From positions 1-47,463 of the IMG/VR virus record IMGVR_UViG_3300010392_000264: 47,463 nucleotides of DNA; one strand, given 5' to 3'. Both the position numbers and the translations under genes were made by a program. Every line of letters begins with the position of its first letter. Within the stretch, counting starts at the first letter, position 1. The stretch comes from a virus. A model generated the notes under the pieces. That model ran no database searches. It was given only the letters and a program-made list of their open reading frames with translations, and was not told the origin of the DNA. This document shows positions 38,367-47,463 of the stretch, in pieces.

Positions 38367-38586
38367 CGGTCGGCTCCTTGCTCAGACGGCGGGCGCGCAG
38401 GGCCATGAAGGCGTCGGCGCAGTATCCAGCCAAGTCGGTCCAATCATCAGCAGCGCGACATACAAGTTCTGGGTTTGCGCAGATCCCCGTCAACGCCGCC
38501 AGCGCCGCCTTGTCCCATAGCGCCTGCGTGTCGTCTGGCTTGCGCTCAAGCGGATGCGCGCGCGGGACCGGCAGCGGGGCGATCAT
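38359..38586 (-). CDS. Small hypothetical protein
   Basis: A 75-residue helical protein (TQALWDKAALAALTGICANP, then LVCRAADDWTDLAGYCADAF). The pattern of Ala-rich helices with ADDWTDLA-like motifs is common in small phage proteins of unknown role. ATG 38586 overlaps the upstream stop (ATGA). Confidence 0.6.
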   Translation of the reverse strand: MIAPLPVPRAHPLERKPDDTQALWDKAALAALTGICANPELVCRAADDWTDLAGYCADAFMALRARRLSKEPTDD

Positions 38587-38897
38587 CGGTCGCCCTCCGC
38601 TTTGGCGAGGGCATCGCAAACAGCGATCCACCAATCCGGGCGCTCGTCGTCCTCGAACGGGACATGGGCGTCGTATGCCTGCCATAGCGCCTCGTACATC
38701 GTCGGGCACGCGGCGATCAGGCGGGCGTTGGCGGCACACTCTTCAGGCGATGCCGTTATATTGCCGCTCGCCGTGAATTCTACGCCTATATATTCCTTTT
38801 GCCACACAAGGCAGACCTCTGATCCAGACGCCTGAACATCTGCTCCGTGCTCCGGGTCCACGTTCCACGGCCCCGGCGTCCACTTCCTCTCAGTCAT
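38583..38897 (-). CDS. WTPGPW-family protein, copy A
   Basis: A 104-residue protein beginning TERKWTPGPWNVDPEH and containing AANARLIAACPTMYEALWQA. The gene at 40189 begins TERNWTPGPW and contains EANARLIVAAPEMYEALKNL, so the two are paralogues. The family is frequent in phages and prophages, function unknown to me. ATG 38897 is supported by GGAGG at 9-nt spacing (38907-38911) and overlaps the upstream stop by 1 nt. Confidence 0.75.
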   Translation of the reverse strand: MTERKWTPGPWNVDPEHGADVQASGSEVCLVWQKEYIGVEFTASGNITASPEECAANARLIAACPTMYEALWQAYDAHVPFEDDERPDWWIAVCDALAKAEGDR

Positions 38898-39115
38898 TAG
38901 ATACATCCTCCAATGTGAAGCGCCACGCCCACGGCCGCAGCGGCGAACGCGATCACGACGGCCCCGGCCGCCAGGCGCTCAAGTTGCACGGTGTAGCGGT
39001 CTGACCAGTCGCCCTCGGGCGCGCCGATCATCCATGCCGCCATGTCGTCAAGAAGCCGCGCGCGGGCCTTGCGGTGCGTCAGCCAGCGGGGCGGGGTGAT
39101 GGCGTGGCGGGTCAT
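38897..39115 (-). CDS. Small C-terminal-anchored membrane protein
   Basis: A 72-residue protein with a basic soluble N-terminal part (PPRWLTHRKARARLLDDMAA) and one C-terminal membrane helix (AGAVVIAFAAAAVGVALHIG). Probably a tail-anchored inner-membrane protein with its basic part in the cytoplasm. ATG 39115 overlaps the upstream stop (ATGA). Confidence 0.6.
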   Translation of the reverse strand: MTRHAITPPRWLTHRKARARLLDDMAAWMIGAPEGDWSDRYTVQLERLAAGAVVIAFAAAAVGVALHIGGCI

Positions 39116-40019: not shown

Positions 40020-40192
40020 GCCACGTCCTCCTGCTGGATGCCCATCCGCCGCTTCAGGTCGCACGCCTGATCGGCCATCTCGTCGCTGACGTGGGCGAAG
40101 AAGTCCGCCAGCCAGTCGCACCGCTCGGCACGGCACTGGCGCGTCAACTCGAACGCCTCGTCGCTGATCGCCTGCGCTTCCTCCGGCGTCAT
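40016..40192 (-). CDS. Small hypothetical protein (58 residues)
   Basis: A 58-residue acidic helical protein (TPEEAQAISDEAFELTRQCR, RCDWLADFFAHVSDEMADQA) with three Cys. It fits exactly between its neighbours with ATGA (40189-40192) and GTGA (40016-40019) overlaps. No family recognised. Confidence 0.6.
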   Translation of the reverse strand: MTPEEAQAISDEAFELTRQCRAERCDWLADFFAHVSDEMADQACDLKRRMGIQQEDVA

Positions 40193-40584
40193 CGGTCGCG
40201 ACCTTCGGCACGGGCTAGAACGGCGAGCGCGTGATCCATAAGCAGTCCCGGCTCATGCCTGCCGCCTGTACGATCAAGCCACCCGGTTAGATTCTTCAGC
40301 GCCTCGTACATCTCCGGCGCGGCGACGATCAGGCGGGCGTTGGCTTCTCCAAAAACATGAACGCTCTCCACGCGATCCTTGCCGAAATCTTCAAGTCCTG
40401 TGAGGCAAAGAGACGGTTCGACAGGCATATGCGCTCTTAACTTAGAGCACGGGCCACCGCCCTTTTCTTGCCCGACAATCAAACCCTCCCCGTTTGGGCC
40501 GACTAACATTTGCCATCCCCATCCGGCCCTGTAGTCCTCGCCCTGCCAACGCCATGGCCCCGGCGTCCAATTCCGTTCGGTCAT
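40189..40584 (-). CDS. WTPGPW-family protein, copy B
   Basis: A 131-residue paralogue of the gene at 38583 (TERNWTPGPWRWQ; EANARLIVAAPEMYEALKNL; acidic/basic end LAVLARAEGRDR). The insert between the N-terminal motif and the NARLI helix differs in length and sequence from copy A, as though the middle carries the specificity. ATG 40584 starts at the conserved TER motif. Confidence 0.75.
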   Translation of the reverse strand: MTERNWTPGPWRWQGEDYRAGWGWQMLVGPNGEGLIVGQEKGGGPCSKLRAHMPVEPSLCLTGLEDFGKDRVESVHVFGEANARLIVAAPEMYEALKNLTGWLDRTGGRHEPGLLMDHALAVLARAEGRDR

Positions 40585-40589
40585 CCCCG

Positions 40590-40904
40590 TCACTCCGCTG
40601 CGTAGCGCGTGGCCGAAAAGCTCGACCACTCGCATGACACGTGTTCGTCAAACGCCGCGTCCACGTCGCCCTGCGTCTCAAGCGCCGCGTCGGCAGCCCG
40701 ATACAGAATAACGTCAAAGTGCGGGTTCAGCGCCGCCCATCGGCCACGCTCGAACTCGTACTCAATCGGGCCGGGGAAATACGCCGTGGGCTCGACCACG
40801 CTCGTGAACCGTAGCTCCTGCCGGAGCGCCAGTTCGCCAGCCAGGTCGATCATCGCGCCGTTCGGCAGCGGGATCTCCGTTAGCGATGCGGTGATGTATG
40901 GCAT
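40590..40904 (-). CDS. First gene of the leftward operon, hypothetical
   Basis: A 104-residue protein, beta-rich in the first half (PYITASLTEIPLPNGAMIDL, then ELRFTSVVEPTAYFPGPIEY) with an acidic C-terminus. No family recognised. ATG 40904 follows GAGGGACAG about 30 nt after the predicted transcription start of the leftward promoter (40942-40970). Confidence 0.6.
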   Translation of the reverse strand: MPYITASLTEIPLPNGAMIDLAGELALRQELRFTSVVEPTAYFPGPIEYEFERGRWAALNPHFDVILYRAADAALETQGDVDAAFDEHVSCEWSSFSATRYAAE

Positions 40905-40941
40905 CTGTCGTCCCTCGTCGTCGTGTGTGGCGATGAGGGAT

Positions 40942-40970
40942 AGTGTGCTTCTTTGGCACAAGCCAGTCAA
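40942..40970 (-). promoter_or_regulatory. Leftward promoter with operator in its spacer
   Basis: Read leftward: -35 TTGACT (40965-40970), 3 bp, operator TTGTGCCAAA (40952-40961), 4 bp, -10-like CACACT (40942-40947); total spacer 17 bp. The rightward promoter at 41004-41032 has the same layout and the same 10-bp operator. A repressor bound there would block the polymerase site. Expected start is near 40934, about 30 nt before ATG 40904. Confidence 0.7.
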
Positions 40971-41003
40971 GCACAAATTTGGCCAGCCGGAAGATTATTC
41001 GGC

Positions 41004-41032
41004 TTGACAGCGTTGTGCCAAACCGCCACACT
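41004..41032 (+). promoter_or_regulatory. Rightward promoter with operator in its spacer
   Basis: TTGACA (41004-41009), 3 bp, operator TTGTGCCAAA (41013-41022), 4 bp, CACACT (41027-41032); spacer 17 bp. It is a mirror copy of the leftward promoter. The expected transcription start (about 41039-41040) coincides with the ATG of the HTH gene, implying a leaderless mRNA. A scrambled half-site pair (GCACAA 40971-40976, TTTGGC 40978-40983) lies between the two promoters and may be a third, weaker site. Confidence 0.7.
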
Positions 41033-41039
41033 CCACGCC

Positions 41040-41249
41040 ATGACGCTAGATAAATACCTCAAGGCCAACGGCCTTTCGCGGCGCGCTTTCGGCGAAATGA
41101 TCGACGTTGAGCGCAGCACCGTGGCCCGTTGGGCGCTCGGCGACCGTCAACCGCCATTAGCGATGGTCGCCAGGATTGAGCAGGTGACGGGCGGCGCTGT
41201 CCGCTTCGAAGACTGGCTTGAGGCCGACATGACCGGAGATGCCGCCTGA
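41040..41249 (+). CDS. Cro/CI-like helix-turn-helix regulator
   Basis: A 69-residue DNA-binding protein: HTH at about 12-34 (LSRRAFGEMIDVERSTVARW), followed by a short dimerisation-type tail (MVARIEQVTGGAVRFEDWL). It is small, Cro-sized, with no protease or oligomerisation domain. It is the first rightward gene at the switch and the natural ligand for the two TTGTGCCAAA sites. There is no Shine-Dalgarno site, consistent with leaderless translation from its own promoter and autoregulation. Confidence 0.85.
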   Translation: MTLDKYLKANGLSRRAFGEMIDVERSTVARWALGDRQPPLAMVARIEQVTGGAVRFEDWLEADMTGDAA

Positions 41250-43864: not shown

Positions 43865-44004
43865 TCGGCGCCCGCGTCCCCACCCGGCGCGCCGTAGCCC
43901 AGGCCGGCTGTTCGCCCCTCGTCGGTCGGCCTGGGCGTTCCAAGACGTTCTTCAACGACGTGATCGCCGTCTTCCGGGCCGGCGGGAAAGCGATGGGGCG
44001 ATGA
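43861..44004 (+). CDS. Very small basic protein (47 residues)
   Basis: A 47-residue basic protein (RRAVAQAGCSPLVGRPGRSK, FFNDVIAVFRAGGKAMGR). It fills the gap before the methyltransferase with ATGA overlaps at both ends (43861-43864 and 44001-44004), the main reason to accept it. Confidence 0.5.
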   Translation: MIGARVPTRRAVAQAGCSPLVGRPGRSKTFFNDVIAVFRAGGKAMGR

Positions 44005-44792
44005 CCTACGCCCGCAAGGAAGTCATCGGCGACGCGACGCTGTACCTGGGCGACTGCCTGGAAGTCATGCCGGCGCTGCCCGATGCCGCTATCGACATGA
44101 TTTGGACAGACCCGCCGTATGGGCACAGCAATCATGATGGCGACTGGAACTCGCGTCTAAACGAAGTTCGCGGCATCGAGGGCAAGCCGATTGCAAACGA
44201 TGATGCGGATGGCATGCGCCGCGTCGTTGACGGCATGCTGGTCGAGGCAAGCAGGGTTCTAAAGCCCGACTGCTGCTGCTGCTGCTGCTGCTGCGGCGGC
44301 GGCGGTCCAAGGCCGACATTCGCGTGGGTAGCGGATCGCATGGACCGCGATGGACTGACATTCTTTCACAGCGTCATCTGGGACAAGAAGAACCCCGGCC
44401 TCGGATGGCGCTACCGGCGTCAGCACGAGATGGTCATGGTCTCGCACCGTGCCGGCGGAAAGCTGTCTTGGGCCGACCAAAACGTTACCGCGCGGAATGT
44501 CTTCTCGCTTATGCCACCGCGCGAACGCGAACACCCTAACGAAAAGCCGTTAGGCCTCGTCGACCACTTCATCCGACTGCATACCGTCTACGGCGATATC
44601 GTTTGCGACCCCTTCATGGGCAGCGGCACGACTGGCGTTGCGTGCGCCAAGCTCGGCCGCAAGTTCATCGGCATCGAGCTTCACGAGCCATACTTCGACA
44701 TCGCCTGTCGCCGCATCGAAGACGCCTACCGCCAGCCGGACATGTTCATCGCTCCGCCCGCCAAGGCGACGCAGGAGGCGATGGACCTATGA
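44001..44792 (+). CDS. DNA adenine/cytosine-N4 methyltransferase, copy 2
   Basis: A 263-residue amino-methyltransferase with DPPY at 37-40 (motif IV) and an intact SAM site DPFMGSGTTG at 203-212 (motif I), the beta-class order. The central region includes an eight-Cys, four-Gly run (91-102) encoded by a TGC repeat. The first 24 and last 50 residues match copy 1 (1432). Modification would protect phage DNA from restriction or mark it; the target is unknown. The start overlaps the previous small gene. Confidence 0.92.
   Translation: MTYARKEVIGDATLYLGDCLEVMPALPDAAIDMIWTDPPYGHSNHDGDWNSRLNEVRGIEGKPIANDDADGMRRVVDGMLVEASRVLKPDCCCCCCCCGGGGPRPTFAWVADRMDRDGLTFFHSVIWDKKNPGLGWRYRRQHEMVMVSHRAGGKLSWADQNVTARNVFSLMPPREREHPNEKPLGLVDHFIRLHTVYGDIVCDPFMGSGTTGVACAKLGRKFIGIELHEPYFDIACRRIEDAYRQPDMFIAPPAKATQEAMDL
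44271..44294 (+). repeat. (TGC)8 trinucleotide repeat inside the methyltransferase
   Basis: Eight perfect TGC units, coding for eight Cys, are followed by GGC-GGC-GGC-GGT for four Gly. Slippage here would add or remove whole residues without a frameshift. I recall a similar Cys-then-Gly run in other phage methyltransferases of this type, so it may be structural rather than accidental. Confidence 0.9.
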
Positions 44793-46618: not shown

Positions 46619-47463
46619 ATGACCGCGAAGAAAGAGGCCAAGCCGGCCGAACCGTTCCAGCGCGACACGAGCTTGAACGTCTATCAGCGCCTCGCGCTCG
46701 TGATGGAGGAAGTCAGCTACCTCAAGAAGGACACCAAGATCCAGGGCTACACGGCCATGTCGCACGACGGCGTTACTGCCGCGACGCGGCCGGCCCTGCT
46801 GAGGCATGGCGTCTTGGCGCTACCGCATGCCTACAGGCACGAGACGCTAGATAACAAGCCGACCCGAAACGGCGAGATGGCGCATGTTCGCCTGGAGGCC
46901 GTCGTCCGTTTCATCAACATCGATAACCCGGCTGATTACGTGGACGTGCCGTCGCTGGCTGACGGGCAGGACCAGAACGACAAGGCGTCGGGCAAAGCCA
47001 TCAGCATGGCGATCAAGTACGCGCTGCTCAAAGGCCTGATGCTTGAGACCGGCGACCGCGAGGAAGAACGCATCGAGGTCGAGCCGGTCGATCACGCCAA
47101 CGACGAGCAGCGCATTGCGCCGGAGAACCCCGCCGACGCAGGCGACTGGTTCGAGCCGACGCCGGAGATCGCCGAGAACCCGCTGTACATCCCGGTCCAT
47201 CCGAAGGTCGATCCGAAGGGCGTTGCGAAGCTCTACAACGGCCAACGGATACCGAACTGGCGGTCGTGGGCGCAGGACTACCGGGACGCCATGGCCGAGG
47301 CTGCACGCTCGCCCGAGCCGCTTACGACGCTCGAAGAACTGTTCCACGCCAACTCTAACACCGAAGCCCGCTTTGCTAAGACGAAGGCTGGCGTGGACGG
47401 CGGCGCGAACTGGCTGAACGGCGAGAAGTCGAAGTTCCGCGCAATGGCGGCGCAGGCCCCCAA
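46619..47463 (+). CDS. erf: ERF-family single-strand annealing protein, N-terminal part (continues at 1-149)
   Basis: The main part of a 288-residue recombinase that crosses the junction and ends at 149. The ERF signature is DKASGKAISMAIKYALLKG (about 121-139) followed by LETGD, within a domain from about residue 17 to 150 (LNVYQRLALVMEEVSYLKKD at the start). ERF proteins anneal complementary strands and can circularise phage DNA, which suits a headful-packaged genome. ATG 46619 has AGGAGAAGG upstream; GTG 46601, with AGGAGGG 7 nt upstream, would add six residues and is an alternative. Confidence 0.9.
   Translation, partial: MTAKKEAKPAEPFQRDTSLNVYQRLALVMEEVSYLKKDTKIQGYTAMSHDGVTAATRPALLRHGVLALPHAYRHETLDNKPTRNGEMAHVRLEAVVRFINIDNPADYVDVPSLADGQDQNDKASGKAISMAIKYALLKGLMLETGDREEERIEVEPVDHANDEQRIAPENPADAGDWFEPTPEIAENPLYIPVHPKVDPKGVAKLYNGQRIPNWRSWAQDYRDAMAEAARSPEPLTTLEELFHANSNTEARFAKTKAGVDGGANWLNGEKSKFRAMAAQAP
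47337..47463. repeat. Terminal direct repeat, right copy
   Basis: Identical to bases 1-127 and in the same frame of the ERF gene. See the left copy for interpretation. Confidence 0.95.

Follow-up and report, generated by a model that had tools for sequence, protein, structure and literature searches.

Back-to-back early promoters sharing a predicted operator beside a Cro-type gene in a phage genome with no detected CI-like gene

Results

A compact divergent control region in a probably complete phage genome

The window, i.e., the whole stretch of DNA analyzed here, is a 47,463-base virus record in which positions 1-127 and 47337-47463 are identical. This exact 127-bp direct terminal repeat indicates that the record is probably a complete phage genome, either circularly permuted or terminally redundant. 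The genome encodes NinB, an HNH endonuclease, a replication initiation protein, a ParB-like protein and a Holliday junction resolvase, and its portal protein has relatives among the head-to-tail connecting proteins of other phages. Copies of this phage were found in one 37-kb and one 8-kb contig, which were identical over the stretches compared. Two DNA-methyltransferase-like genes (1429-2132 and ~43998-44792) share DNA stretches of 87-93% identity, which suggests that these were recently duplicated or exchanged within the genome. The second of them contains a perfect (CTG)8 repeat (44270-44294) that could permit variation in length or be an assembly artefact.

We focused on the 135-bp intergenic region (40905-41039) separating two divergent genes. 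The rightward gene (41040..41249, plus strand) encodes a 69-aa protein that scored 32.2 bits against HTH_3 (PF01381; cut-off 23), the family of Cro/CI-type phage regulators. Its AlphaFold2 model (pLDDT 88.8) has five helices and is all-helical. The nearest solved folds include prophage YdaS and other Xre-type regulators, none of them below E = 0.001, and the protein falls outside the YdaS_toxin family (PF15943; 19.8 bits vs a cut-off of 30). The first leftward gene (40590..40904, minus strand) encodes a 104-aa orphan protein behind a Shine-Dalgarno-like GAGGGA and a leader of ~30 nt; this protein has no family and no HTH, and no relative of it was found outside the present phage. Two leftward early proteins (38583-38906 and 40189-40635, both minus strand) belong to PHROG 1273, a family of unknown function.

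Two opposed promoter units of matching design

The first-pass annotation had proposed two opposed promoters, each with TTGAC(A/T), CACACT and a 17-bp spacer, and both were located in the intergenic region. The rightward early promoter (41004..41032, plus strand; TTGACAgcgTTGTGCCAAAccgcCACACT) has its -35 box TTGACA at 41004-41009 and its -10 box CACACT at 41027-41032, in the layout TTGACA-gcg-TTGTGCCAAA-ccgc-CACACT, a geometry found family-wide. The leftward early promoter (40970-40942, minus strand; TTGACTggcTTGTGCCAAAgaagCACACT) has TTGACT at 40970-40965 and CACACT at 40947-40942, and reads TTGACT-ggc-TTGTGCCAAA-gaag-CACACT. Their 10-bp arms form an exact inverted repeat with 51 bp between (40962-41012), as had been described. 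The CACACT hexamers are weak in both promoters, matching the consensus at 3/6 positions. The start codon of the 69-aa gene at 41040 lies 7 nt past the rightward -10 and lacks a Shine-Dalgarno sequence, so the cro mRNA is probably leaderless; the gene thus stands directly after the rightward unit, where the annotation had placed a Cro/CI-like gene.

In register, the two units are identical at 22/29 bases, a match reached by none of 400 dinucleotide-shuffled versions of the intergenic region (maximum 19), and an exact 10-bp inverted repeat turned up in 9 of 1000 such shuffles. Genome-wide, there is no enrichment of exact 10-bp inverted repeats having loops of 20-100 bp (8 observed vs ~12 expected), and the repeat was therefore rejected as stand-alone evidence. 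Two other genomic places also attain 22/29. The case for the paired promoters thus rests on their position and on the composite promoter-operator motif, which, allowing up to 3 mismatches, has two matches in the genome, both at this locus, and none in shuffles. Further TTGTGCCAAA sites were also sought across the genome, and none beyond chance appeared. By eye, a sigma-54 reading of TGGCAC within the repeat was rejected, as there is no matching GC at -12.

The predicted operator reaches into the -10 box

The annotation had embedded a 10-bp operator inside each spacer. One operator per promoter held up, whereas its boundaries did not: it is probably better drawn, from the dyad scan and the register seen in phage homologues, as a ~17-bp dyad, TGTGcC-N5-GsCACA, that extends across the spacer and the -10. 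The putative right operator (TGTGCCAAACCGCCACA) occupies 41014..41030 on the plus strand, and the left one (TGTGCCAAAGAAGCACA) occupies 40944..40960 on the minus strand. At up to one mismatch, TGTGCC-N5-GSCACA matches only these two places in the genome, each on both strands. The same operator is thus present in both early promoters, as in a lambda PL/PR-like pair. Neither twin TTGTGCCAAA nor the same operator pair turned up in any other phage, the only hits being copies of the present one.

The predicted dyad covers spacer positions 5-17 and continues over bases 1-4 of the -10, so CACACT would be both a -10 box and a half-site. Such a double role could explain why the same poor -10 is kept in both promoters. 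The dyad centered at spacer position 13 ties with another center in each of the two promoters. Between the promoters, the scrambled half-site pair of the annotation does exist (GCACAA-ATTTGGC, 40971..40983, no strand assigned), but it does not fit the operator dyad; a third operator was accordingly rejected by the dyad scan, and the role of the pair is doubtful.

The best sigma-70 consensus match within 6 kb is a different, leftward site, TTGGCA-16-AATAAT (41021-40994, minus strand), which matches at 10/12 positions and overlaps the right operator. If this were the true leftward promoter, with the right repeat serving as its -35, transcription would start elsewhere than proposed and the CACACT boxes would be half-sites only. 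Despite its better consensus match (vs 3/6 for the proposed -10s), we regard this as very improbable: the left repeat offers no -10 at its mirror site, the rightward gene would be left unexplained, and both units, like many homologues, retain TTGAC at the 17-bp spacing. The two arrangements could also coexist, and the site may be an additional, Cro-sensitive promoter beside the back-to-back pair.

Operator placement among homologues of the 69-aa protein

We gathered homologues of this protein from bacterial genomes of two orders as well as from phage genomes and viral contigs. Dereplication left 61 distinct proteins, of which 59 had a usable start codon; a narrower-alignment scan of genome contigs gave two loci. 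A TTGACA-like box (at least 5/6) stands at the leaderless-promoter distance in 26 of the 59 (shuffles: mean 3.6, maximum 10). In many relatives, the start codon lies 6-8 nt past a TTGACA-N17 promoter that carries a different dyad in a similar register. In the nearest homologue (L102/L124, Crenalkalicoccus roseus, 46% identity), TGTGCGTATGGCGTACA occupies the same register and TACACT lies 7 nt before the ATG.

The dyad signal has its maximum at spacer position 13 (z 4.5) in a set of 11 homologues, most of which come from phages, although this set had already been seen when the idea of a center at 13 was formed. The same position is the center of the (tied) best dyad in both promoters of the present phage. 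At 23 independent and more distant genome loci a fixed center at 13 was unconfirmed (mean profile 2.43 vs a shuffled mean of 2.27 and maximum of 2.83); the strong single dyads there mostly center at positions 10-14. A strict center-13 rule for all homologues was hence rejected, as it holds in the phage set and fails in the distant genome set. As judged from these sequence profiles, the dyad register is conserved among the closer relatives and less fixed in more distant ones.

Of 35 promoters, the present phage included, 19 are preceded by a second operator-like copy (p ≤ 0.05), against ~2 expected. By this sequence measure, the twin-operator layout is common in the Cro family of the 69-aa protein and not a singular invention. 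In one phage with an integrase and CI (L007, 2860-2970), the twin layout carries a different operator, ATTCATATATGAAT, in the spacers of both divergent promoters.

A further possibility is that the main binder of TGTGcC-N5-GsCACA is a host regulator or another HTH-bearing phage protein (4268-4933), acting as repressor or activator, with the 69-aa protein working mainly on host genes. A precedent is TgrL of phiCbK, an early XRE-family regulator of a lytic phage of an alphaproteobacterium, Caulobacter, that represses many host genes (PMC10688885). In the portion of that report available to us, host genes are the main targets described for TgrL, and no twin-operator early promoter pair is described (PMC10688885). 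Covariation between protein and operator is also weak, the similarity of recognition helices being weakly correlated with that of operators (Mantel p 0.04). Against another binder, the dyads of the family vary between phages yet keep to the cro gene's own promoter, which is the pattern of autoregulation, and we consider this explanation quite unlikely.

No lysogeny module was detected

The genome has a single HTH_3 match, the Cro-type protein itself; no second match, and thus no CI-like gene, was detected. Searches of the genome also gave no match to S24 peptidase, Phage_integrase or Resolvase, the latter two covering tyrosine and serine recombinases. A lambda-type CI/Cro switch would have a CI gene divergent from cro, where the present phage has a leftward gene without a family. 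Nor was an integration or other lysogeny module found, a result still compatible with episomal lysogeny. Most of the relatives examined differ in this respect: the divergent gene beside the homologue has an HTH_3 match in 8 of 10 loci tested, with an S24 peptidase match as well in 3 of these 8.

The leftward orphan occupies the very position of that HTH-encoding gene, and a true lysis/lysogeny switch could be maintained if a family-less lysogeny repressor, perhaps this orphan or a protein from a co-resident element, competed with Cro at both operators. The orphan has neither HTH nor family, and the genome lacks detectable integrase, resolvase and S24 peptidase, which makes a hidden repressor unlikely in our judgment. 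The first-pass label of a genetic switch is accordingly doubtful, and the locus probably dampens early genes instead of switching between lysis and lysogeny.

Comparison with characterized phage switches

In phage lambda, near-identical operators lie over each of the divergent early promoters PL and PR, and Cro, the first product of the rightward operon, lowers both. The present locus resembles lambda PL/OL1-PR/OR1 in its divergent early promoters with like operators and in having a small HTH protein as the product of the first rightward gene. Unlike in lambda, the promoters are directly back to back, with 10-bp arms 51 bp apart and no cI or rex between them; there is one clear operator per promoter and no detectable CI, the cro mRNA is probably leaderless, and Cro is of the all-helical type. 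The location of lambda OL and OR over pL and pR is documented (PMC2848208).

The CI/Cro regions of the telomere phages PY54, N15 and phiKO2 are similar in two respects (PMC4488713). Their Cro binds a 16-bp palindrome, comparable to the dyad binding predicted here, and RACE showed leaderless mRNAs for both cI and cro of PY54, as is probable for cro here. They differ in that PY54 Cro binds a single site and blocks cI, apparently not itself, and in that a CI gene is present (PMC4488713). The PR-PL switches of TP901-1 and phage 13 likewise have their divergent promoters, overlaid by operators, within a single intergenic region; there, however, CI binds the operators, MOR modulates, the hosts are Gram-positive and a CI gene is present (PMC8516035).

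A probable Cro-type autorepressor at both early promoters

The regulatory element is real, was correctly described in the first-pass annotation, and is ordinary in kind. The gene for the 69-aa protein opens an early operon, and over its own promoter lies a dyad operator deduced from the sequence and from homologues. Twin promoters with one operator each beside a Cro-type gene fit the repression of both directions by one small protein, as had been suggested. We consider it likely, from sequence comparison, that this protein is a Cro-type autorepressor that binds both dyads and lowers both operons. On phage entry, the back-to-back sigma-70-type promoters would start the leftward and rightward early operons, and the first rightward gene would yield the Cro-type protein, probably from a leaderless mRNA. 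A Cro dimer would then bind the ~17-bp dyad that overlaps both spacer and -10 in each promoter, and would exclude RNA polymerase from both promoters. As Cro builds up, both operons, its own included, would be turned down. Such negative feedback is the most economical reading of binding, promoter activity, start sites and timing, all deduced from sequence.

More tentatively, and with somewhat less than even confidence, the phage may be a CI-less virulent phage with a stripped-down lambdoid switch, in which a leaderless Cro and two identical promoter-embedded operators would make both early operons fire in a symmetric pulse that limits itself. This would be the minimal natural circuit remaining once the lysogeny repressor had been lost. 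As an example of Cro working without CI, the locus would be clean and testable. Its interest lies in this symmetric CI-less form and in the tendency of the family to place the operator inside a leaderless cro promoter. This tendency (cro start 6-8 nt past TTGACA-N17, with spacer and -10 as operator) could be used to predict repressor operators in uncultured phages from sequence.

In phage C72C1 and a near relative (L098 and L117), the cro homologue has a recombination operon, instead of a CI gene, as its divergent neighbor, and inverted TTKACAGTT repeats lie upstream of it, possibly another CI-less arrangement.
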